From: Pelagerythrobacter marinus
GTDB taxonomy: Bacteria; Pseudomonadota; Alphaproteobacteria; Sphingomonadales; Sphingomonadaceae
NCBI RefSeq assembly: GCF_009827515.1
Contig: NZ_WTYO01000003.1
Coordinates: 124,001-188,000 of the forward strand
Direction of reading: 5' to 3'
DNA: 64,000 nt
A model generated the notes under the pieces. That model saw only the letters and a list, made by a program, of their open reading frames with translations, was not told the DNA's origin and made no database searches. Of the stretch, positions 1,104 to 12,535 are shown in pieces (position 1 is the first letter of the stretch; each line of letters starts with the position of its first letter). Position numbers and translations under genes: made by a program.

Positions 1104-1132
1104 TTGACATCGCGACGCTCATTGGTTAGAAA
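1104..1132 (+). promoter_or_regulatory. Putative sigma-70 promoter of the GTA-like cluster
   Basis: TTGACA at 1104-1109 matches the -35 consensus exactly. A 17-base spacer leads to TAGAAA at 1127-1132 (-10-like, 4 of 6), followed by an A-rich start region. It stands about 100 bases before the terminase small-subunit gene in an AT-richer stretch, unusual for this window. A 9-base direct repeat, ACATCGCGA, occurs at 1107-1115 (overlapping the -35 box) and 1139-1147, 32 bases apart (about three helical turns), and could be an operator. Promoter call is inference. Confidence 0.55.
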
Positions 1133-1233
1133 AGACGAACATCGCGATAGTGCGATTCGCCGGGACCGCCCTCGCGGCGTCCCCCTTCCCTTTCTCTTCC
1201 CACCCCCTCTCCACCAAGACACGGAGCCGAATC

Positions 1234-1812
1234 ATGACCAAGGCGAAATCCTCGCCTGCCCGCGGCCGCGCGCCGGCGGGCAAGGCATGGCGCAAGCCCT
1301 TCCTGGCGGAACTGGCGCGCACGTCCAACGTCGCCGCATCCGCCCGGGCGGCGGGGATCGAGCCGGGCGCGGCCTATGGCGCGCGGCGCGGCGACCCGGC
1401 CTTCGCCCACCAGTGGTTCGAGGCGCTGTGCGAAGGCTACGACAACCTCGAGCTCGACCTGCTGCGCCGCCTGCGCGAAGGCGAGCTGGCCGGCGCGACG
1501 ACCCCGGCCGGCAAGGCGCGGCGCAAGTACGACAATGCCACCGCGCTGCGCCTGCTCGCCGCGCACCGCGCCAGCGTCCAGCGCCAGCGGGGCCGCAACG
1601 ACTATGCTTACGAGGACGAAGTGCTCGCCTCGATCGATGCCAAGCTGGAACGGATGCGCCAGCGGCGGATCGCCATGCGCGCCGCCCCCGAATCCGGCCC
1701 CGAATCCGGCCCCGAATCCGGCCCCGGCGCGGCCCCCGGCTCCGGCTCCGGCTCCGGCCCGAACGGGGACGACGACGAAGCCGGCGGCGGGGACGCGGGC
1801 GATGGCCGCTGA
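1234..1812 (+). CDS. GTA/phage-type terminase small subunit-like protein
   Basis: 192 residues from ATG 1234, chosen because GGAG at 1223-1226 gives an SD-like site; an upstream start at 1150 lacks one. The N-terminal half (residues about 15-60) looks like a helix-turn-helix of small terminase type (LARTSNVAASARAAGIEPGA), followed by charged helices. The C-terminal tail is low-complexity: PESG three times, then GSGSGSG and an acidic end. Small terminases bind DNA and load the large subunit. It overlaps the large terminase start by 11 bases, fitting a translationally coupled pair. The assignment rests on position as much as sequence; the family is weakly conserved. Confidence 0.65.
   Translation: MTKAKSSPARGRAPAGKAWRKPFLAELARTSNVAASARAAGIEPGAAYGARRGDPAFAHQWFEALCEGYDNLELDLLRRLREGELAGATTPAGKARRKYDNATALRLLAAHRASVQRQRGRNDYAYEDEVLASIDAKLERMRQRRIAMRAAPESGPESGPESGPGAAPGSGSGSGPNGDDDEAGGGDAGDGR
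1687..1722 (+). repeat. Three perfect 12-bp tandem repeats inside the small terminase gene
   Basis: CCCGAATCCGGC occurs three times head to tail (1687-1698, 1699-1710, 1711-1722), encoding Pro-Glu-Ser-Gly units. TCCGGC is repeated three times shortly after (1741-1758). Because the units are multiples of three, gain or loss of copies keeps the frame. Confidence 0.9.
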
Positions 1813-3199
1813 TCGCGCGGGCGATCCGCCGCACGACCCGCCCGACGACCCGCTCGACGCGCAGCTCGACCGCAAGCTGGCCGAGCTGCTGCGGATGGAG
1901 GAAGACGAACGGCAGAAGGAACTCGCCCGGCTCGCGCCCCACGAGCGCGCCGAGCTGCGCCACCACTGGACCTTGTGGGCCCGGCGCGACCAGTTGCCGC
2001 CCGCGGGCGACTGGTCCGCCTGGCTGATCTGCGCCGGGCGCGGTTTCGGCAAGACGCGCGCGGGCGCCGAATGGGTGCGCGAGATCGCCAAGCGCGATCC
2101 GCGCGCCCGGATCGCGCTGGTCGGCGCGAGCCTGGCCGAAGTGCGCGCGGTCATGGTCGAGGGCGAAAGCGGCATTCTCGCCTGCTCGCCGCCGCACCGC
2201 TGCCCGGCCTACGAGCCTTCGCTGCGCCGCCTCACCTGGCCCAACGGGGCGCTGGCCACGCTCTATTCGGCGGGCGAGCCGGAAAGCCTGCGCGGCCCGC
2301 AACACAGCCATGCCTGGTGCGACGAGATCGCCAAGTGGGACATGGCGGGCGAGCGCGCGACGCGGGCGTGGGACAACCTCGCCCTCGGCCTGCGGCTGGG
2401 CGAAAGCCCGCGCGCGCTGGCGACCACGACGCCGCGCCCGGTGCCGCTCCTCCTGCGCCTGCTGGCGGCGGAGGACACGGGCGAGGTCGCGGTGACGCGC
2501 GGGACCACGTTCGACAACCGGCCCAACCTGCCGGGCCGGTTCGTGGCCGCGATCGAGCGCCAGTTCGGCGGGACCAGCTTCGCCCGGCAGGAACTGGGCG
2601 GCGAGCTGCTGGCCGAAGTCGAGGGCGCGCTGTGGAGCCGCGCGCTGCTCGAACGCTGCCGCCTGGCGCAGGATGCTGCCCTGCCCGGCGATCCGGTGCG
2701 CGTGGTCGTGGGGGTCGATCCCCCGGCCGGCACGCGCGGCGATGCCTGCGGGATCGTGGTCGCCGCGCTGATGCCCTGCGGCGGCGCGCGCGTCCTCGCC
2801 GATGCCTCGATCGAGCGCGCCAGCCCGGAAAGCTGGGCCCGCGCGGTCGCCGAGGCGGCACGCGCCTGGCAGGCGGACCGGGTCGTGGCCGAGGCGAACC
2901 AGGGCGGCGCGATGGTCGCCAGCGTGCTGCGCGCCGCGCGGCGCGACCTGCCGGTGCGGCTGGTCCACGCCCGCCGCGGCAAGGTGGCCCGCGCCGAACC
3001 GGTCGCCGCGCTCTACGAAGCGGGCCGGGTTCGCCACGCGGCGCTGTTCCCCGCGCTGGAAGACCAGCTCTGCGGGCTGATGGCCGGTGGCCGCTACCAC
3101 GGCCCCGGCCGCAGCCCCGACCGCGCCGACGCGCTCGTCTGGGCGCTGACCGAACTGATGCTGGGCCCCGCCCCGCGCCCGCGGATCTCGGTGATCTGA
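1802..3199 (+). CDS. Terminase large subunit (GTA/phage DNA-packaging ATPase-nuclease)
   Basis: 465 residues from ATG 1802, which overlaps the preceding gene. Terminase large subunits pump DNA into proheads with ATP and cut it. Visible motifs: Walker A AGRGFGKTRAG at about residues 78-88; Walker B-like HAWCDEIAKW at about 170-178; a C-terminal RNase H-fold nuclease with VGVDPP (about 302), an acidic/Asn patch EANQGG, and SPDRADALVWAL (about 438-449). Length and order fit the RcGTA-type TerL, and all catalytic motifs look intact. The long upstream open frame from 1376 is not used, since it lies within the small terminase gene. Confidence 0.92.
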   Translation: MAADRAGDPPHDPPDDPLDAQLDRKLAELLRMEEDERQKELARLAPHERAELRHHWTLWARRDQLPPAGDWSAWLICAGRGFGKTRAGAEWVREIAKRDPRARIALVGASLAEVRAVMVEGESGILACSPPHRCPAYEPSLRRLTWPNGALATLYSAGEPESLRGPQHSHAWCDEIAKWDMAGERATRAWDNLALGLRLGESPRALATTTPRPVPLLLRLLAAEDTGEVAVTRGTTFDNRPNLPGRFVAAIERQFGGTSFARQELGGELLAEVEGALWSRALLERCRLAQDAALPGDPVRVVVGVDPPAGTRGDACGIVVAALMPCGGARVLADASIERASPESWARAVAEAARAWQADRVVAEANQGGAMVASVLRAARRDLPVRLVHARRGKVARAEPVAALYEAGRVRHAALFPALEDQLCGLMAGGRYHGPGRSPDRADALVWALTELMLGPAPRPRISVI

Positions 3200-3266
3200 G
3201 AGGGCGATGGACAGCGTCGGACCGATGCCCGTAAGCAGGCAGGAAGAGGAAGGGAGACACGATCCG

Positions 3267-3794
3267 ATGATGAAGCGCACTCTCGTCGCCGCGGCCGCGG
3301 CGCTGTCGCTGGCCGCCCCGGGAACGCCCATGGCCCAGGACCTGGCATTCGATTGCGACGTCGAGGCGGGCCGGTTCTCCTCGATCACGTTCGACACGGC
3401 CCGGCCGCTCCGCATCAGCGGGACGATAGAGCCGGTCGAAATGCGATCGGGAGACACGCTTCCGGTGGCGGGCGTGCGACTGGCGCGGACCGACGGGAGC
3501 CACAGCTTCGGCTTTCAGCTGATCGCGCCGTCGCCCAGGTCGCCGAGGCTCGACGTCTTCTTCAACGACCGCGGCGCGCAGCAGCCCCGCCGCGAGCTGC
3601 CCCCCGTGAGCGCCGAAGGACCGATCCCCTTCGCCCTGTCGATCGCGGCCGACGGCACCGGCGAGCTGCAGGTTGCCGAGACCGTCCACCGGTTCGAAAG
3701 CCGGCCTTTCGCGCCGGCCCAGGTCATGGTGTTCTGCTCCACCGGTCAGTTCAAGTTCGCCGGGCTGGCGTGGGAAGCCCCGCCCAGCCCCTAG
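3267..3794 (+). CDS. Secreted protein of unknown function inserted between terL and portal
   Basis: 175 residues from ATG 3267 (a second ATG follows at 3270); AGGAAGAGGAAGGGAG just upstream is a strong SD. The N-terminus MMKRTLVAAAAALSLAAPG...AQ is a Sec signal peptide with cleavage likely after PMAQ. The mature part has two cysteines (FDCDVE near the N-terminus, FCSTGQ near the C-terminus), suggesting a disulfide-stabilised beta-rich periplasmic domain. I do not recognise the family. It has no obvious phage role and is followed by its own terminator, so it looks like a cargo gene breaking the usual terL-portal order. Confidence 0.75.
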   Translation: MMKRTLVAAAAALSLAAPGTPMAQDLAFDCDVEAGRFSSITFDTARPLRISGTIEPVEMRSGDTLPVAGVRLARTDGSHSFGFQLIAPSPRSPRLDVFFNDRGAQQPRRELPPVSAEGPIPFALSIAADGTGELQVAETVHRFESRPFAPAQVMVFCSTGQFKFAGLAWEAPPSP

Positions 3795-3837
3795 CCGCGG
3801 GGCCCGTCCGCCCCCCTTCGCAAGAGCCGGTCATCGA

Positions 3838-3870
3838 CCCTCCCCGCCGTCCGCGACGGGGAGGGTTTTT
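3838..3870 (+). terminator. Rho-independent terminator before the portal gene
   Basis: CCCTCCCCG (3838-3846) pairs with CGGGGAGGG (3857-3865), a 9-bp GC stem, followed by TTTTT at 3866-3870. It should end the transcript of the secreted-protein gene 44 bases upstream. The stem also matches the CCTCCCC/GGGGAGG palindromes found after the portal gene. Confidence 0.75.
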
Positions 3871-3891
3871 CATTGCCCGAAAGGAAACCCC

Positions 3892-5028
3892 ATGTCCTTC
3901 CTCGCCACCATCGCTTCCGCCTTCAAGGGCGGGGGCGGGGCTCGCGTGCCGCTGGCGCGCGGGTTCGTTTCGCCCTGGGCGCTCGCGGTCGAAAGTGCGG
4001 GCGCCCCGCCTTACGAATATGGCCGCAGCGTGCGCCGGGCCTACCTCGACAACCCGGTCGCCCAGCGCAGCGTGCGGCTCGTCGCGGAGGGGGTCGGCAG
4101 CGCGCCGATCCAGCCGAGCGACCCGGCGCTGGAGGCGCTGGTCGGCGCGACGGGCGCCGGGCAGGCGCTGATCGAGACGGTCGCCGCGCACCTGCTGCTG
4201 CACGGCAATGCCTATGTCCAGGTGATGAAGGACGCCGCCGGCCAGCCGGTCGAGCTGTTCGCCCTGCGGCCCGAGCGGGTTTCGGTCGTGGCGGGCGACG
4301 ACGGCTGGCCCGCCGCCTATGCCTACAAGCTGGCCGACCGGACGCTGACGATCGCGCCCGAGGACGAGGACGGCTGGCCCAATATCGTCCACTTGCGCGC
4401 CTTCCACCCCGCCGACGACCATTACGGCGCCGGCGCGCTGGCCGCGGCGGAGCAGGCGGTGGCGATCCACAACGCCGCCTCCGCCTGGAACCGCGCGCTG
4501 CTGGAGAACGCGGCCCGCCCCTCGGGCGCGCTGGTGTTCGAGGGGGCCGACGGCGCGCCCCTGACCGGCGAGCAGTTCGAACGGCTCAAGGCCGAACTCG
4601 CCGCCGGCTTCCAGGGCCAGGCCAATGCCGGGCGGCCGATGCTGCTCGAAGGCGGGCTGAAATGGCAGGCCATGGCCCATTCGCCGGCGGACATGGACTT
4701 CGCCACCCTCAAAGCCGCCGCCGCGCGCGACATCGCGCTCGCTTTCGGCGTCCCGCCGATGCTGCTCGGCCTGCCGGGCGACAACACCTATGCCAATTAC
4801 CGCGAGGCCAATCGCGCGCTCTGGCGGCTGACGCTGCTGCCGCTGGCGGGCAAGATCCTCGCCGGGCTGGGCCAGGGGCTGGAGCCGTGGTTCCCGCAGG
4901 CCAGGCTGGCGGTCGATCTCGACCGCGTGCCCGCGCTGGCCGAAGACCGCGAGAAGCTCTGGGCGCAGGTCAGCGCCGCCGATTTCCTCTCCGCCGAAGA
5001 GAAACGCGCGCTGCTGGGGCTGGCGTGA
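3892..5028 (+). CDS. Phage/GTA portal protein (HK97 type)
   Basis: 378 residues from ATG 3892, preceded by SD AAGGAAA at 3881-3887. Portal proteins form the dodecameric ring at one prohead vertex through which DNA passes and to which the tail attaches. HK97-portal features: early VAQRSVRLVAEGVGSAPI, LHGNAYVQVM at about 100, the FHPADDHYGAGALAAAEQAV stretch at about 170-190, ARDIALAFGVPPMLLGLPGD at about 280-298, then YREANRALWRLTLLPL. Length is close to the RcGTA portal. It is separated from terL by the secreted-protein gene plus terminator, so it probably needs its own promoter or read-through. Confidence 0.92.
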   Translation: MSFLATIASAFKGGGGARVPLARGFVSPWALAVESAGAPPYEYGRSVRRAYLDNPVAQRSVRLVAEGVGSAPIQPSDPALEALVGATGAGQALIETVAAHLLLHGNAYVQVMKDAAGQPVELFALRPERVSVVAGDDGWPAAYAYKLADRTLTIAPEDEDGWPNIVHLRAFHPADDHYGAGALAAAEQAVAIHNAASAWNRALLENAARPSGALVFEGADGAPLTGEQFERLKAELAAGFQGQANAGRPMLLEGGLKWQAMAHSPADMDFATLKAAAARDIALAFGVPPMLLGLPGDNTYANYREANRALWRLTLLPLAGKILAGLGQGLEPWFPQARLAVDLDRVPALAEDREKLWAQVSAADFLSAEEKRALLGLA

Positions 5029-5041
5029 TTGAAGAGAGGGT

Positions 5042-5178
5042 CCTCCCTATCGTCTTGCGATGGGGAGGGGGACCGCGAGACGCGAAGCGGCTCGGAGTGG
5101 AGGGGCCCTGCGCGACATCGCCCCTCCGACCGACGCCTGCGGCGTCGCCCACCTCCCCAACGCAAGTCGTTGGGGAGG
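5042..5178. repeat. Array of palindromic repeats between portal and next gene
   Basis: Four hairpins stand in a row: an imperfect one with arms at 5042-5052 and 5058-5068; GGAGGGGC/GCCCCTCC (5099-5106 with 5120-5127); GACGCC-TGC-GGCGTC (5132-5146); and the 11-bp stem CCTCCCCAACG/CGTTGGGGAGG (5152-5162 with 5168-5178). CCTCCCC...GGGGAGG palindromes of this look are, as I recall, widespread intergenic repeats in sphingomonads. They may affect mRNA stability or act as non-autonomous mobile repeats. Confidence 0.75.
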
Positions 5179-5202
5179 ACTAGCGACAAGGACATCGATC
5201 CC

Positions 5203-5511
5203 ATGGACAGGACCGACATGATCGCCCGGCTGATGGCCGAGGCGAAGGACGGCGGCTGCGAGCTGGTGACGCTGCGCGCGATCGTCGAGGAAGCCACCGA
5301 TCTCGGCGCGGACCGCGCGCTCCAGCGCACCGGCCTCGCCGATCCCGACGCGCGCGAGGACCTGGCCGAACTGCGCGAGCTGCTCCAGGCCTGGCGCGAC
5401 GCCAAGGCCAGCGCCTGGCGCGCGGCGATCGCCTGGCTGGTGCGCGGCGCGCTGGCGCTGCTCGTGATCGGGATTACCGTGCGGCTGGGCCTCGCCGGGG
5501 CGCTGCGGTGA
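5203..5511 (+). CDS. Small GTA-associated membrane protein (DUF6127-like)
   Basis: 102 residues from ATG 5203. The first two thirds are charged and helical (VTLRAIVEEATDLGADRAL, then LAELRELLQAWRDAKASAW). The C-terminus is one hydrophobic segment (AWLVRGALALLVIGITVRLG), so it should be tail-anchored. Position between portal and protease matches the small g3.5 gene of RcGTA clusters. I recall sphingomonad homologues named DUF6127, but this is memory. Its stop overlaps the GTG start of the protease, so the two are translationally coupled. Role unknown. Confidence 0.75.
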   Translation: MDRTDMIARLMAEAKDGGCELVTLRAIVEEATDLGADRALQRTGLADPDAREDLAELRELLQAWRDAKASAWRAAIAWLVRGALALLVIGITVRLGLAGALR

Positions 5512-5912
5512 CCCGGCTGGCCGGCTACGCCGCGCTGTTCGGCCGCGCCGACGCCGCGCGCGACACGATCCGCCCGGGCGCCTTCGCCCGCACCCTGGCC
5601 GAGCGCCGGACGGCATCGCTCGGGCCCCTGCCGCTCTACTGGCAGCACCGGCCCGACCGGCGGATCGGCTGGATCGAACGGGCGCGCGAGGATGCGCGCG
5701 GCCTGCGCGTGATCGCCGCGCTCGACAATCCCGCCGGGCGCGCCGCCGCCCTGCTGCGCCGCCGCGCGATAAGCGGCCTCAGCTTCGGCTATCGCGCGCG
5801 CCGGTTTCACCGCGAGGCCGAGGGCCGCGTGCTGGAGGATGTGGAGCTGTTCGAAGTCAGCCTCGTCACCCACCCGCTGCAGCACGGCGCGCGGGTGTTT
5901 CTTGTTTGTTGA
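5508..5912 (+). CDS. GTA/phage prohead protease (HK97 S78 family)
   Basis: 134 residues from GTG 5508, whose TG is shared with the preceding TGA. These serine proteases mature the capsid by cutting the major capsid protein delta domain. The order fits: N-terminal GYAALFGRADAARDTIRPGAF, catalytic His in YWQHRPDRRIGW (about residue 48), catalytic Ser in AISGLSFGYRA (about residue 86), and the acidic VELFEVSLVTHP near the C-terminus. It ends in the unusual tail RVFLVC, where the AT-richer junction begins. Its normal substrate gene is missing downstream, so its present job is unclear. Confidence 0.88.
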   Translation: MTRLAGYAALFGRADAARDTIRPGAFARTLAERRTASLGPLPLYWQHRPDRRIGWIERAREDARGLRVIAALDNPAGRAAALLRRRAISGLSFGYRARRFHREAEGRVLEDVELFEVSLVTHPLQHGARVFLVC

Positions 5913-5930
5913 CCGAAGTGTTTCCGTTGA

Positions 5931-6192
5931 CCTCAGGCGCCGGCGGCCGCATCCGCGGCCTTGGCTATCCTCCGCGCAAAGCGCTCCGGGCGCGCGGTCG
6001 CGCTTGCGGGGCTGCTGGTCGCAGCCCCGGACCTTTCCCAGCCGCGAGCGCCTGAAGAAGCCCCTTCCCAGCCAAGGATGCCGGGAAAGATCCGGTCCGC
6101 GACCAGCGGACCGCAAGGCCGACCGGCCGTCCGCAGCGACCGCAGGGAGCGAGGATAGCCAAGGGCCCGGATGGCCCCGCCGGCGCCTGAGG
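5931..6192. repeat. Inverted-repeat element (MITE-like) at the site of the missing capsid genes
   Basis: The arms at 5931-5973 and 6151-6192 are imperfect inverted repeats of about 42 bp: outer 16 bases CCTCAGGCGCCGGCGG identical, a diverged middle, then CTTGGCTATCCTC identical. The interior of about 177 bp is itself rich in short palindromes (for example GGGGCTGCTGGTCGCAGCCCC) and codes for nothing convincing. A direct repeat CCTGAGGCTCC follows at 6186-6196 and 6203-6213. It fills the gap between protease and tail gene. The structure suggests a non-autonomous mobile or dispersed repeat; no transposase is present. Confidence 0.7.
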
Positions 6193-6234
6193 CTCCAAAA
6201 AACCTGAGGCTCCCACAAAAAAGGACACACAACC

Positions 6235-8574
6235 ATGCCCTATTGGCTTGCGCGCGAGCGGCGGGGGCAGGAGGCCGACTGGATACAGCGGTTCGATCCG
6301 CGTTTCTGGACGGTCGATTTCCCGCGCCCGATGATGGCCTGCGTGGTCGCGACCGCGCCCGATGCCCTGCGCGTCGATTGCGAGTTCCTTTACCAGGGCC
6401 AGCTCGCCGGGTTGATCTGGGCGAGCGAGGATCGGCTCGACCACCCGCTGCTCGCCTATGAAACCCAGCGCGACTATTCGCACACCGTCCTGCGCTTCCA
6501 CTGGCGTTCGGGCGGGATCGTCGCGCTCGACCGGGCCAACGGGCCGACCCTGACGATCGAGGGGCGCGACGCGGCGGGGCAGGCGCGCAGCTGGTACGTG
6601 CGGCTGTGGAACTATGCCAGCGGCAGCCCCACCGACGCGCGGATCGAGCTGTCCTTCTCCGCCCTGGGCAGCGGCTGGTCGCTGCCGGGCACCCCGGTCC
6701 ACCCCGCGGACATCGACCGCATGTTCATCTCGCTGGTCCCCGAAGGCTACGTCCCCGGCAGCACGGCGCCGCTCGCCGCGCGGGCCGAAGGGTTTGTCGA
6801 AATGAGCGAGATCGCGTGCCACGGCGACCACGCGAGCCTGGCGATCGGCGATGTCATGCTGCCGCCGCACGGGGAACGGATCGCGACCGCTTACGACGAT
6901 GCCTACAACCAGGAACCGACCCGGCTGCTGCGAAATATCCGCGGGCTCGGCTACCGCGACCGCATCCTGCACTATCTGGGCATGAGCCATTTCCCCCGGC
7001 TGGAGGCGGAAGGGGATGCGATGCCGGTCGCACGGCCGGCGGCGATCTGCACCCCGGCGCGGCGCTGGCACGAGCGGTTCTATGCCGCGGCGGGGGCCGC
7101 CGGATACGCGGTGATCAATTCGCTGTCCTACGAGCTGCTGGCCGATCACTGCCCGGCCGAATGGCAACAGCGCGCGCACGACGGCAGCGCGGCGCGCACG
7201 GGGTGGGACCCACCCTCCGCCCTGCTGTCGCCGGCCAATGGGGAGGCGATGGCCTGGCTGCAATCGGCCGCGGTCCAGTTCACCGCGCTGCAGCAGGCCG
7301 CGGGCCTGCCGGTCCTGTTCCAGGTGGGCGAGCCATGGTGGTGGGTCGTCCCGCACAGCGGCGCGCCCTGCCTCTACGACGATGCCGCGATCGCGGCCTT
7401 CGGCGGCGCGCCGCCGGTGATCGCCGACATGCGCGCCCCGCTGGACGGCGCGCAGACCGCCCTGCTCGACGATGCCGGCGCGCTGCTGGCGCAATCGACC
7501 GCGGCGCTGGGGCAGGCGGTGCGCGATGCGGCGGGCGGGGCGGCAGGCGGCGACACGGAGATCCTGCTGCTCGCCTTCACCCCGACGATCCTCGATCCCG
7601 CCATGCCCGAACTGAAACGGGCCAACCTGCCGGCGGGCTGGGCCTGGCCGGCTTTCGACCGGCTCCAGCTGGAAGATTACGACTGGCTGACCGCGGGGTT
7701 CGACGCGCGCTGCCGGGCGGCGATCGCCGAAGTCGATGCGCGGCTCGGCTACCCGGTCGAGCGGCAGGATTACCTCTCCGGCTTCGTGCTCGATCCCGCC
7801 GATGCCGACGCGTTCTGGCCCCGGATCGATGCCGCGCTCGACCGGGCCGCCGGGCGCGGGGTGGGCGAACGCTACGTCTGGGCGCTGCCGCAGGTCGCGC
7901 GCGATGGATACACGCGGCTCGCGCCGCCGAAGGAGGACGACGACGTGCAGGCTTTCGACGACGTGGAATATCCGCTCGCGCTGGGGCGCGACGCGGCGGC
8001 CAGCCCCGAGTTCGCGACCTCGGTCGCGGTCACCGCCTCGGGGCACGAGCGGCGCAACACGCTGTGGGCCGATGCCCGGCTGCGGTTCGATGTCGGGCCC
8101 GGCATCCGCTCCGAAGACGAACTGGGCACGCTGATCGCCTTCTTCCGCGCCCGGCGCGGGGCGGCGCGCGGATTTCGCCTGCGCGATCCCTTCGATCACA
8201 GCTCCAGCGGGATGACCGGCCCGCCCGGCCCGCTCGACCAGCTTCTCGGCACCGGCGACGGCGCGCGCGACACGTTCGCGCTGGTCAAGGCCTATGGCGA
8301 CGGGGCGGAGCCGCAGCTGCGGCCGATCACCCGCCCGCGCGCAGGCACGGTGCGCGTGTCGGTGGACGGGGCCGAGAGCTTCGCCTGGACGCTGTTGCCC
8401 GGTGGCCGCGTGCAGTTCGTCGAGGCCCCGCCCCCGGGGGCCGAGATCCGCGCCGGGTTCGCGTTCGACGTGCCGGTGCGGTTCGAGCAGGACCGGCTCG
8501 ACGTGGCCGGGGCGAACTTCGCCGCGGGCGAGGCGCCTTCCGTCCCGCTGATCGAAATCCGCGAGGCGGCATGA
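6235..8574 (+). CDS. GTA tail protein: tail sheath-like/glycosidase-like region plus DUF2460 (TIGR02217)
   Basis: 779 residues from ATG 6235, with AAAGGA (6218-6223) as SD. The first part (about residues 1-560) begins MPYWLARERR...RFDPRFWTVDFPRPMMA and carries a TIM-barrel-like middle (HYLGMSHFPRLE, INSLSYELL, QVGEPWWWVVP). The last part (about 570-779: FDDVEYPLALGRDAAASPEF, LRDPFDHS, LLPGGRVQFVEAPPPGA) is the DUF2460 region seen alone in RcGTA g12. Such long proteins occur, as I recall, in sphingomonad GTA clusters and have been called non-contractile tail sheath-like. The stop overlaps the next start (ATGA). The frame is fully intact despite loss of the upstream structural genes. Confidence 0.85.
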   Translation: MPYWLARERRGQEADWIQRFDPRFWTVDFPRPMMACVVATAPDALRVDCEFLYQGQLAGLIWASEDRLDHPLLAYETQRDYSHTVLRFHWRSGGIVALDRANGPTLTIEGRDAAGQARSWYVRLWNYASGSPTDARIELSFSALGSGWSLPGTPVHPADIDRMFISLVPEGYVPGSTAPLAARAEGFVEMSEIACHGDHASLAIGDVMLPPHGERIATAYDDAYNQEPTRLLRNIRGLGYRDRILHYLGMSHFPRLEAEGDAMPVARPAAICTPARRWHERFYAAAGAAGYAVINSLSYELLADHCPAEWQQRAHDGSAARTGWDPPSALLSPANGEAMAWLQSAAVQFTALQQAAGLPVLFQVGEPWWWVVPHSGAPCLYDDAAIAAFGGAPPVIADMRAPLDGAQTALLDDAGALLAQSTAALGQAVRDAAGGAAGGDTEILLLAFTPTILDPAMPELKRANLPAGWAWPAFDRLQLEDYDWLTAGFDARCRAAIAEVDARLGYPVERQDYLSGFVLDPADADAFWPRIDAALDRAAGRGVGERYVWALPQVARDGYTRLAPPKEDDDVQAFDDVEYPLALGRDAAASPEFATSVAVTASGHERRNTLWADARLRFDVGPGIRSEDELGTLIAFFRARRGAARGFRLRDPFDHSSSGMTGPPGPLDQLLGTGDGARDTFALVKAYGDGAEPQLRPITRPRAGTVRVSVDGAESFAWTLLPGGRVQFVEAPPPGAEIRAGFAFDVPVRFEQDRLDVAGANFAAGEAPSVPLIEIREAA

Positions 8575-9386
8575 GCCGGGCGTTCCTTTCGCGCGAGCTG
8601 GACACGGTCGCGACCTTCTGGCGGATCTTCCGCCGCGACGGGGTCGCGCTCGGCTTCGTTACCCACGATCGCGACTTGCATTTCGGCGGCCTGCTCCACC
8701 GCGCCGCGCCGGGCATCGTGCCCCATGCCCTGCGCCGCACCGCGGGCCTCGCCGACGACGAGGCCGAAGTGCGCGGGGCGCTGACCCACGACGGGATCGC
8801 CGCGGCGGACCTGGCCGCGGGCCGGTTCGACGGGGCGCGGGTGGAAATCGGCGCGGTCTGCTGGGAAAGCCTGGAGACCGCCGTGCTCTACGGCGGAACG
8901 ATCGGGCAGGTGAGCGAGAGGGCGGGGACATTCGCGGCCGAACTGCGATCCGCCAAGGCCGCGCTCGAACGCGATTTCGTCCCCCGCACCGGGCCGACCT
9001 GCCGGGCCCGGTTCTGCGGGCCGGGATGCGGCTTGCCCGCCGCGCGCTTCACGCACGAGACAGTGCTGGAAGCGATCGACGCGGAGGCCGGCACCGCCCG
9101 GTTCGCCGCGCCCGATCCCGCGCTGATGCCCGGCGGGCAGGTCCGCTGGATCGACGGGCCGCTGTGCGGGCTGGCCATGCGCGTGCTCGCGGCGTCGGAC
9201 GGCGCACTGGTGCTCGACCGGGCGCTCGACCCCGCGCCGGCGCCGGGCACGCGGGTGCTCCTGCGCGAGGGGTGCGACGGGCGGCTGGCGACATGCGCCG
9301 CGCGTTTCGGCAACGCGGCCAATTTCCGGGGCGAGCCTTTCCTGCCCGGGCTCGACCTCCTCGCGCGCTACCCGGCCGCGCCATGA
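8571..9386 (+). CDS. DUF2163 GTA/phage tail-hub protein
   Basis: 271 residues from ATG 8571, overlapping the previous stop by 4 bases. The start SRELDTVATFWRIFRRDG followed by LGFVTHDRDLHFGG is characteristic of DUF2163 (RcGTA g13). A Cys-rich stretch near residue 140 (CRARFCGPGCGLP) and another near 240 (CDGRLATCAARFGN) match the conserved cysteines of this family, which bind an iron-sulfur cluster in the RcGTA baseplate hub as I recall. It sits between g12-like and g14-like genes in the standard order. All expected motifs look intact. Confidence 0.88.
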   Translation: MSRAFLSRELDTVATFWRIFRRDGVALGFVTHDRDLHFGGLLHRAAPGIVPHALRRTAGLADDEAEVRGALTHDGIAAADLAAGRFDGARVEIGAVCWESLETAVLYGGTIGQVSERAGTFAAELRSAKAALERDFVPRTGPTCRARFCGPGCGLPAARFTHETVLEAIDAEAGTARFAAPDPALMPGGQVRWIDGPLCGLAMRVLAASDGALVLDRALDPAPAPGTRVLLREGCDGRLATCAARFGNAANFRGEPFLPGLDLLARYPAAP

Positions 9387-9799
9387 CGCGCGATCCCGGC
9401 CCGGCCGTGGCCGGCGCGGCGCGGGCGCTGGTCGGCACGCCGTTCCGCCTCCACGGGCGCGACCCGCGTTCGGGCCTCGACTGCATCGGGCTCGTCGCCG
9501 CGGCGCTGGAAAGTGCCGGCCTGCCGGCCGATCCGCCCGCGGGTTACGGCCTGCGCAATGCCGATCCGGGCGATCCCGACGCGATCGCCCGGCGCAGCGC
9601 GCTCCACCCGGCAAGCGGCCCGCCCCGCCCCGGCGACGTCGTGATCGTCCGACCCGGGCCCGGGCAGCTGCACCTGCTCGTCTGCGCCGGGGCGGACCGC
9701 TTCATCCATGCCCACGCCGGGTTGCGCCGGGTCGTGGCAATGCCCGGGCCGCTGCCTTGGCCGGTGCTCGGCCGCTGGCGGCCCGGCGGAAAGGACTGA
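9383..9799 (+). CDS. NlpC/P60 cell-wall hydrolase of the GTA/phage tail
   Basis: 138 residues from ATG 9383, 4-base overlap with the preceding gene. NlpC/P60 peptidases cut peptide stems of peptidoglycan; in GTA tails this protein helps pass the recipient wall. The catalytic Cys lies in LDCIGLVAAAL (about residue 33), and the partner His in GQLHLLVCAG (about 96) after PGDVVIVRPG. Length and neighbours match RcGTA g14. No signal peptide, consistent with a particle component and not a secreted housekeeping hydrolase. Confidence 0.88.
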   Translation: MTRDPGPAVAGAARALVGTPFRLHGRDPRSGLDCIGLVAAALESAGLPADPPAGYGLRNADPGDPDAIARRSALHPASGPPRPGDVVIVRPGPGQLHLLVCAGADRFIHAHAGLRRVVAMPGPLPWPVLGRWRPGGKD

Positions 9800-9804
9800 C
9801 TGCA

Positions 9805-12003
9805 ATGGCCACTCTCGTACTCGGCACGATCGGCACGCTCGTCGGCGGGCCCCTCGGCGGCGCGCTCGGCACGATCGTCGGGCGCGGGATCGACGGCGCG
9901 GTGATCGGCACGGGCCGGCGCGAAGGCCCGCGGCTGAAAGACCTGGCGGTGACCACGTCCAGCTATGGCCAGCCGCTGCCGCGCCATTTCGGGCGAATGC
10001 GCGTGGCCGGCAGCGTGATCTGGGCGACCGACCTGGTCGAGAACCGCGAGACCGGGGGCGGCGGCAAGGGGCGGCCGAAGACCACGACCTACAGCTATTC
10101 CAGCTCGTTCGCGGTCGCGCTGTCGAGCCGGCCGATCGCCGGGCTCGGGCGCATCTGGGCCGATGGCAAGCTACTGCGCGGGGCGGCGGGCGATCTCAAG
10201 GTCGGCGGCGCGCTGCGCGTCTATGGCGGCCACGGCGACCAGGCCCCCGACCCGCTGATCGCCGCCGACGCCGGGGGCGTCTGCCCCGCCTTTCGCGGCT
10301 GCGCCTATGCCGTGTTCGAGGATCTTGAGCTGGCCGATTTCGGCAATCGCATCCCCGCGCTGACGTTCGAAGTCCTCGCCGACGCGGGCGGGTTCGCGCT
10401 GTCCGACCTGGTCGGGCCGCTCGTGCCCGGCGCGCGGGGCGAGGTCGCGCTGGCCGGGCTGGAAGGGTTCTCTTACGAAGGCGGCCCGCTGCGCGAGAGC
10501 CTGGCGACGATCGACCGGCTCTTCCCCCTCGCCGCCGATACGGCAGGCGGCGGGATCGCGCTGGCCGGCGCCTACCCGCCCGCGGCAACGGCGATCGACC
10601 TGCCCGAGCCGGTGCTCGCCCCCTGCCGCGACGGGGCCGAGGCATGGGAAGGCCCGCGGTTCGAGCGCGAGGCCGGCCCCCTGCCCGCCCCGTCGGCGCT
10701 GCGGTATTACGACGTCGCGCGCGATTACCAGCCCGGTCTGCAGCGCGCGGCGAGTGCCGGCGGCGACAACGAGGATGGACGCGCGATCGAGTTTCCCGGC
10801 GCGCTGGCACCGGATCGCGCGCGCACGCTCGCCGGGGCGGCCGCGGTGCGCGCCCGGGCCCGCGGCACGCGGCTATCGCTGCGGATCGCCGAGCTGGACC
10901 CGGCGCTCGGCCCCGGCAAGCTCGCCCGCGTGCCCGGCGTTGAGGGGCTGTGGCTGGTCGAAAGCTGGGAGTGGGACGAACACGGCATTGCGCTGGACCT
11001 GCGGCGGCACGCACTCGCCGCGGCGGCCGAGGCCGACCTGCCCGGCGATGCCGGCCGGCCCGCGCTGCCCCGCGACGGCGCCACCCCGCCGACGCTGCTG
11101 CGCGCGTTCGAACTGCCGTGGGACGGCCGCGGCGATCCGGCCCGGCCGCCCGCGTTCGCCGCCGCGTCGGCCGCCGATGCCGGCTGGCGCGGGGCGAGCC
11201 TCTACCTCGAAGACGGGGGCGTGCTGGAAGAGATCGGGCCGAGCGGGCAGGCGCGCAGCATCGGCGGCACCCTTGCCGGCGCGCTCGGCGCTTCGCCCGC
11301 GCGGCTGCTCGAACGCCAGGCCTCGATCACGCTCGATCTCCACGCGCCCGACATGGTCCTCGCCTCCGCGGGCGCGGAGGCGCTGGCGGCCGGGGCCAAC
11401 CGGCTGCTGGTCGGCCGCGAAGTGCTGCAATATGCCCGCGCGGTGCAGGAAGGCGCGCGGCGCTGGCGGCTCGAAGGGCTGCTGCGCGGGCGGGGCGGGA
11501 CCGAAGCGGCCGCTGGGGCCGGCCATCCCGCCGGGACCGCGGTGACGCTGATCGACGCCGCGCTGCTGCCGATCGGCGACCGGCTGACCCCCGGCACGCC
11601 CGCGCCGCGCGTCGCCGCGATCGGGCAGGCCGACGACGCGCCGGTCATCGCCCCGATCGAGGGGCACGGCGAAGGCTTGCGGCCACTGGCCCCGGTCCAC
11701 CCGAGGGCGCGCCTGCTGCCGTCGGGCGCGCTCGCGCTCGGCTGGATCCGCCGGGCGCGCGGGGCCTGGCAATGGCTGCCCGAAGTCGATGCCCCGCTGG
11801 TCGAGCAGGCCGAGCTCTACCGGCTCGGCGCCGGCCCGCCCGAGGCGCCGCTGCGCACCTGGGACATTGCCGAGCCGCATTTCACGATCGCGCCGGCGGA
11901 CCGCGCCGCGCTGGCCGCCGACATGCCCGGCGCGCCGGTCTGGGTCCGCCAGGTCGGCAGTTTCGCGGCCTCCGACCCGCTCGTCCTCGCCACGCTCGAC
12001 TAG
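9805..12003 (+). CDS. GTA/phage tail host-interaction protein (g15-like, phage-tail domain)
   Basis: 732 residues from ATG 9805; AAAGGA at 9790-9795 is the SD. The start is Gly-rich and hydrophobic (LVLGTIGTLVGGPLGGALG), followed by LAVTTSSYGQPLPRHFG and VIWATDLVEN, typical of g15-type and tape-measure-proximal tail proteins. The middle and C-terminus have phage-tail signatures (FEDLELADFGNRIPALTFEV; NRLLVGREVLQYARAVQEG; WRLEGLLRGRGGTE). RcGTA g15 is, as I recall, about 1300 residues with an N-terminal TIM-barrel domain that is missing here; the TIM-like region instead sits in the 779-aa protein two genes upstream. The frame is intact. Confidence 0.85.
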   Translation: MATLVLGTIGTLVGGPLGGALGTIVGRGIDGAVIGTGRREGPRLKDLAVTTSSYGQPLPRHFGRMRVAGSVIWATDLVENRETGGGGKGRPKTTTYSYSSSFAVALSSRPIAGLGRIWADGKLLRGAAGDLKVGGALRVYGGHGDQAPDPLIAADAGGVCPAFRGCAYAVFEDLELADFGNRIPALTFEVLADAGGFALSDLVGPLVPGARGEVALAGLEGFSYEGGPLRESLATIDRLFPLAADTAGGGIALAGAYPPAATAIDLPEPVLAPCRDGAEAWEGPRFEREAGPLPAPSALRYYDVARDYQPGLQRAASAGGDNEDGRAIEFPGALAPDRARTLAGAAAVRARARGTRLSLRIAELDPALGPGKLARVPGVEGLWLVESWEWDEHGIALDLRRHALAAAAEADLPGDAGRPALPRDGATPPTLLRAFELPWDGRGDPARPPAFAAASAADAGWRGASLYLEDGGVLEEIGPSGQARSIGGTLAGALGASPARLLERQASITLDLHAPDMVLASAGAEALAAGANRLLVGREVLQYARAVQEGARRWRLEGLLRGRGGTEAAAGAGHPAGTAVTLIDAALLPIGDRLTPGTPAPRVAAIGQADDAPVIAPIEGHGEGLRPLAPVHPRARLLPSGALALGWIRRARGAWQWLPEVDAPLVEQAELYRLGAGPPEAPLRTWDIAEPHFTIAPADRAALAADMPGAPVWVRQVGSFAASDPLVLATLD

Positions 12004-12061
12004 GCCGTTTCCGCACCGACCACCCGGTCCCCCTCCTCCCGAAGAACCAAGGAGCCATCCC

Positions 12062-12535
12062 ATGCCGGACACACTCGCCTTCGCCTCGGGCACGGCCCGC
12101 TTCGCCCTGCCGCATCTCTTCCCCGCGCAGGCGCAGAAGGAATTCGTCGTCAACGAATCGCTCGCGCGGATCGATGCCCTGCTCCACTGCGCGGTCGAAG
12201 GCGTGGCGGCCGAGCCGCCCGGCGAGCCGGCCGAGGGGGAATGCTGGATCGTCGCCGACACCCCCTCCGGCGCGTGGGCGGGCCGCGGCGGAGAGCTTGC
12301 CGCCTGGCAGGCGGGCGCCTGGCTGTTCGTCGTGCCGCGCGCGGGGATGCGCGTCTTCGACCGGGCAGGCGGCCACTTCCGCCTCTATCGCGAAGGCGCG
12401 CCCGAGGGCTGGCAGGCGATCGATGCCGTCGCCGCACCCGCGGGCGGGGCGACGGTCGATAGCGAGGCGCGCGAGGCGATCGGTAACCTGATCGCAACGC
12501 TTGCCGCTGCAGGAGTTCTGCCGCCTGCCGAGTGA
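12062..12535 (+). CDS. DUF2793 GTA/phage-associated protein
   Basis: 157 residues from ATG 12062 with SD AAGGAG 8 bases upstream. The opening segment FALPHLFPAQAQKEFVVNES followed by RIDALLHCAVEG is the hallmark of DUF2793, found at the end of alphaproteobacterial GTA and phage tail modules. The middle (GECWIVADTPSGAWAGRGGE, then LFVVPRAGMRVFDR) looks like a beta-rich attachment domain, so a tail-tip or fibre-like role is plausible but unproven. It is the last gene of the cluster; the OmpA gene downstream has its own AT-rich leader. Confidence 0.82.
   Translation: MPDTLAFASGTARFALPHLFPAQAQKEFVVNESLARIDALLHCAVEGVAAEPPGEPAEGECWIVADTPSGAWAGRGGELAAWQAGAWLFVVPRAGMRVFDRAGGHFRLYREGAPEGWQAIDAVAAPAGGATVDSEAREAIGNLIATLAAAGVLPPAE

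Follow-up and report, generated by a model that had tools for sequence, protein, structure and literature searches.

Background

Gene transfer agents (GTAs) are domesticated phages that normally move DNA from cell to cell. The RcGTA-like clusters of Sphingomonadales, in particular those of four Pelagerythrobacter genomes (G006, G002, G005 and G003), are the systems closest to the cluster in the window, with the window being the whole stretch of DNA that was analysed, 64,000 nucleotides of a further Pelagerythrobacter genome. These clusters lie at the same locus, with the same neighbours and the same gene order, and share 64-97% protein identity with the window over g2-g4 and g12-g15. Unlike these complete clusters, that of the window is without g5-g11, and an additional ORF separates its g2 from its g3.

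The loss of GTAs has also been described, with pseudogenised and lost GTAs reported in several alphaproteobacterial lineages (PMC10883770), where it is suggested that these may be recent cheaters. These remnants resemble the cluster in the window, in that a cluster that would not produce particles sits at the ancestral locus and has close relatives of the producing type. The window differs from those remnants in its single clean deletion, which is internal to the cluster and placed at a repeat and leaves all other frames open, and the passages of PMC10883770 consulted contain no detailed case of this kind. The same paper gives the completeness rule of Kogay and colleagues, which asks for 14 of 17 head-tail genes and leaves g1, g3.5 and g7 uncounted (PMC10883770).

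Gene content of the cluster

Open reading frames and domain searches identify the region 1150-12535 of the window as an RcGTA-like head-tail cluster (Table 1), in which the genes are kept in the order g1, g2, g3, g3.5, g4, a 322-bp gap, g12-g15 and a DUF2793 gene. This agrees with the first-pass annotation, which had described the kept genes as intact and in the standard RcGTA order. The locus is vertically inherited, with synteny to the congeners running from DedA to OmpA, and the source assembly (G000), in which the window occupies G000:C10:124001-188000, is 3.0 Mb in 16 contigs with a completeness of 100%. The C-terminus of g1 is a low-complexity repeat, and the homology of g2 to the congeners begins at about 1877, inside the mechanical ORF. 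The g12 protein consists of NCTSP_N and an NCTSP TIM barrel fused to DUF2460 and is 93% identical to its homologue in G006, the closest congener, whilst the DUF2793 gene holds the same position in nearly all related clusters.

Table 1. Features of the GTA-like cluster and its deletion junction, in window coordinates.
Feature	Coordinates	Strand	Evidence and remarks
g1, small terminase subunit	1150..1812	+	PHROG 4044, E=1.5e-10; exact start uncertain
g2, large terminase	1376..3199 (ORF)	+	Terminase_6C 3.1e-23, Terminase_6N 1.7e-15
Extra ORF, 195 aa	3207..3794	+	separates g2 from g3; not a GTA gene
g3, portal protein	3892..5028	+	mechanical ORF 3673-5028; Phage_portal E=3e-70
Family-B intergenic repeat	5029..5190	+	between g3 and g3.5
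g3.5, small membrane protein DUF6127	5209..5511	+	PF19622 E=3.1e-26
g4, prohead protease	5508..5912	+	Peptidase_S78 E=3.1e-23
Deletion junction in place of g5-g11	5913..6234		G006 has 4,852 bp there
Family-A palindromic repeat	5927..6215		lies across the junction
g12, distal tail protein, 779 aa	6235..8574	+	PF23844, PF23845 and PF09343
g13, baseplate hub (DUF2163 type, BR0599)	8574..9386	+	PF09931 1e-40, PF09356 3.6e-23
g14, NlpC/P60 peptidase	9383..9799	+	PF00877 8.8e-7
g15, tail-tip protein	9808..12003	+	mechanical ORF 9757-12003; PF13550 and PF23666 (Phage-tail_3 and Rcc01698_C)
DUF2793 protein, final cluster gene	12062..12535	+	mechanical ORF 11789-12535; PF10983 1.5e-26

The 322 bp between g4 and g12 are without any GTA gene and consist of a palindromic repeat together with the retained ribosome-binding site of g12. 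It had been noticed in the first-pass annotation that a repeat fills this gap where g5-g11 are expected, and comparison with G006 confirms it, as the 4,852 bp of the same interval there hold ORFs for the capsid, adaptor, tail-completion, major tail, g10 and tape-measure proteins. The HK97-fold major capsid protein (g5) is absent from the genome of the window, as are the adaptor, tail tube and tape measure (g6-g11). Of the genes counted by the rule of Kogay and colleagues only g2, g3, g4, g12, g13, g14 and g15 are present, which leaves the cluster short of completeness. What is found is the pattern of an inactivated cluster, with the essential structural genes g5-g11 lost, the flanking genes kept and the locus still recognisable.

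The extra ORF between g2 and g3, to which the first-pass annotation makes no reference, has a start that resembles a signal peptide, gave no match in Pfam or PHROG and has no counterpart in any of the six congeners, with relatives at 28-37% identity in 5 of 200 genomes of the family. Elsewhere in the genome there is an intact homologue of the GafA-type activator (DUF6456) at G000:C9:93290-93673, which is 87% identical to that of G006. It was considered as a sign of continued GTA expression and rejected, since congeners without a GTA (L125, L128, L129) also retain DUF6456 and it is thus not diagnostic; the protein may have another role in Pelagerythrobacter.

Related loci

Comparison of synteny in related genomes, which had been proposed as a check, finds the full block at the same locus in four of the six congeners, G006, G002, G005 (P. 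rhizovicinus) and G003. The other two have lost far more of the cluster. In G004 the same locus (L023) retains the end of the portal gene, g3.5, g4 and a frameshifted capsid gene beside DUF2793, with g6-g15 gone, and in G001 (L124), with the same neighbours, only g3.5 (DUF6127) and the end of the DUF2793 gene were detected. The GTA is therefore broken at one locus in three of the seven Pelagerythrobacter genomes, each in a different way.

Deletion of g5-g11 is rare. Where more than 5 kb of sequence precedes g12, the genes g5, g6, g8, g9, g10 and g11 are all present in 70 of 71 loci from GTDB and 55 of 56 from IMG/VR, the exceptions being a locus of Novosphingobium sp. PhB57 (L106) and an IMG/VR entry (L138, IMGVR_UViG_2915110188_000002). 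Across 60 genomes the g12-type TIM-barrel domain is always accompanied by a capsid match, with the window's own genome as the sole exception. The IMG/VR entry is identical to the window over 1234-12003 and was rejected as a second strain, as an identity over 10,770 bp means that it is not independent evidence and it is probably the same assembly. In IMG/VR this remnant, a GTA without its capsid gene, is filed among the viral genomes.

The Novosphingobium locus resembles the window in that everything from the end of the portal gene to the tape measure is missing and g12 is open. It is unlike the window in having two internal deletions, a truncated portal and truncated g13 and g15, and is further decayed; its portal breaks off at about residue 247 and runs on close to the tape-measure end, and its g13 is likewise truncated and fused to the C-terminal half of g15. 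This double internal deletion is an independent event. The survival of g12 in both clusters was considered as a sign of a kept role and rejected, as it is uninformative when the loci were found using g12 as the query.

State of the kept genes

The kept genes are not visibly decaying. Their 3,127 codons include no internal stop, frameshifts are absent, and at 788 near-invariant positions, defined from up to 83 homologues, the window has 3 deviations compared with 4 in G006, 2 in G002 and 4 in G005. The deviations within near-invariant columns of the window are 1/160 in g2, 0/149 in g3, 0/40 in g4, 0/222 in g12 and 2/107 in g15. The first-pass annotation had described catalytic motifs that look kept, and at its conserved residues the window resembles functional congeners. 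The window's own branch has a dS of about 0.106, and neutral drift of the genes along this entire branch would predict about 22 nonsense mutations, assuming a transition/transversion rate ratio of 2, yet none was observed. This sets an upper limit (95%) to neutral drift of about 0.014 substitutions per site, approximately 13% of the branch, and therefore either the deletion is recent or the kept genes still have a role. Gene-by-gene dN/dS is too noisy for dating the deletion, for which concatenation and the bound from nonsense mutations are better suited.

A comparison of dN/dS with functional GTAs, also proposed in the first-pass annotation, was made with the GTA-complete congener G006 and gave a divided result. 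For g2-g4 together with g12 the three-point omega is 0.19-0.21 on the branch of the window and 0.13-0.14 on that of G006 with overlapping confidence intervals, and the neutral fraction is 0.095 (CI 0.02 to 0.20) with G002 as the outgroup and 0.05 (CI -0.03 to 0.14) with G005. For g13 to DUF2793 omega is raised, 0.43-0.48 on the window branch versus 0.21-0.23 for G006, and the neutral fraction is 0.28-0.32, values that come with gene-tree discordance. In g13, g15 and DUF2793, G006 and G002 are nearer to each other than either is to the window, thus recombination or another history may be involved. It is also apparent that over 8574-12535 divergence from G006 is greater in g13-g15 and DUF2793 than in g12, and for these tail-tip genes either recombination or faster evolution is possible.

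With one genome per species, the data on the kept genes would fit equally well a deletion too recent to have left a trace and continued selection. Under continued selection the packaging and tail-tip genes would serve a different or new cellular role, as a GTA derivative without capsid and tube, for example with g12-g15 as a cell-wall hydrolase or adhesin complex, or with the terminase acting on host DNA. That genes are kept for another role had been put forward in the first-pass annotation, and as far as the sequence goes it could be so: all frames are open, near-invariant residues are as well conserved as in functional congeners, and the omega of the head genes and g12 has a confidence interval overlapping that of G006. 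It is nevertheless unlikely, with nothing positive in its support. The omega values average in the time before the deletion, and the packaging and tail modules both remain, although they have no common function without a capsid and tube. Furthermore the raised omega of g13 to DUF2793 is the opposite of what tightened use would give, albeit blurred by the gene-tree discordance, and the same set of genes has been kept by no relative outside the strain. The ruined clusters of G004 and G001, the Novosphingobium locus and the literature context favour decay.

The junction repeat and the missing block

The element across the junction is palindromic, about 280 bp in size, with inverted arms at 5931-5972 and 6151-6192 that form a strong hairpin (folding z=-6.9), and it matches no Rfam family. 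The sequence to its left matches the left flank of the boundary between g4 and g5 in G006, and that to its right matches the right flank of the boundary between g11 and g12 in G006, including the ribosome-binding site of g12. The copy upstream of g12 in G006 is 90% identical to the window element and in inverted orientation. The same repeat family occurs between g4 and g5 in G002 and G003, where G006 has a 15-nt scar, between g11 and g12 in G006, G002 and G005, and also between g5 and g6 in congeners.

Repeats of this kind are not limited to the one family. The family-B repeat recurs, with matching copies between several of the GTA genes in G002 and G005, and at least three short palindromic repeat families (about 275, 140 and 85 bp) fill many of the GTA gene gaps in Pelagerythrobacter. 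A previous survey located GTA clusters at a distance from repeats longer than 800 bp (PMC9836097), whereas the short repeats seen here lie inside the cluster.

The search of the genome for g5 (capsid) to g11 that had been suggested found nothing in the assembly. PF05065 (Phage_capsid) gives no hit anywhere in the assembly that contains the window, and a chained query of the G006 capsid, adaptor, tail and tape-measure proteins gave no g5-g11 match there at E<=1. This empty result is meaningful because the same query, as a positive control, recovers the complete block in G006, G002, G005 and G003.

With a repeat exactly at the junction, it might be thought that the assembler joined two copies of the repeat and that g5-g11 are really present, the artefact that the first-pass annotation had named as the outcome that would overturn its view. 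Assessed from the assembly this is unlikely, as g5-g11 were found nowhere and no stray contig carries them, whereas a 4.5-kb block flanked by repeats would normally survive as a contig. The only other family-A copies in the genome are a tandem array of about 4 units at G000:C15:61736-62383 (L026-L035), with longer matches to the window element at no more than 86% identity and one 37-base piece at 89%, and a false join is unlikely because these copies are so diverged. The IMG/VR entry, identical across the junction, also speaks against an artefact, though it is probably the same assembly. That g5-g11 moved elsewhere, or that an unrelated prophage provides capsid and tube in trans, is the least probable of all, since relocation was proposed in the first-pass annotation with no result to support it and the empty whole-genome searches with PF05065 and the G006 proteins refute it for homologues of g5-g11.

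Proposed explanation

The reading that is best supported, with a probability of roughly 0.88, is that a single internal deletion, about 4.5 kb long, recently inactivated an RcGTA-like cluster. A recent deletion was one of the possibilities raised at the outset, and it is favoured by breakpoints within a repeat, the lack of stops and frameshifts, the intact residues and the limit of 0.014 on drift. The ancestor would have had a complete cluster, as four of the six congeners do, with copies of the same palindromic repeat family between g4 and g5 and between g11 and g12. The two copies would then have recombined, or replication would have slipped from one to the other, so that g5-g11 were removed and one repeat was left behind. 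The block is absent, the repeat is at the junction and the flanks match, from which we infer the recombination event itself. The element in the window lies in the opposite orientation to the G006 copy between g11 and g12, which weakens the case for a simple exchange between direct copies and leaves the exact exchange as a reconstruction, although orientation is weak evidence because the element itself is an imperfect palindrome.

A cell that lacks the capsid, adaptor, tail tube and tape measure would make no particle, and on its gene content this one is predicted to be a GTA non-producer. The remaining genes are probably intact only for lack of elapsed time.

Significance

Pseudogenised GTA clusters were already known, thus the window is a clean early-stage example and not a new type of system. 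Pelagerythrobacter offers a natural series at one locus, with four complete clusters, one fresh clean deletion and two advanced losses, and recombination between short palindromic repeats among the GTA genes is a suggested route of loss. The persistence of GTAs is a puzzle, as non-producers ('cheaters') would be expected to win, and the value of the cluster in the window is that it represents GTA loss at an early stage.
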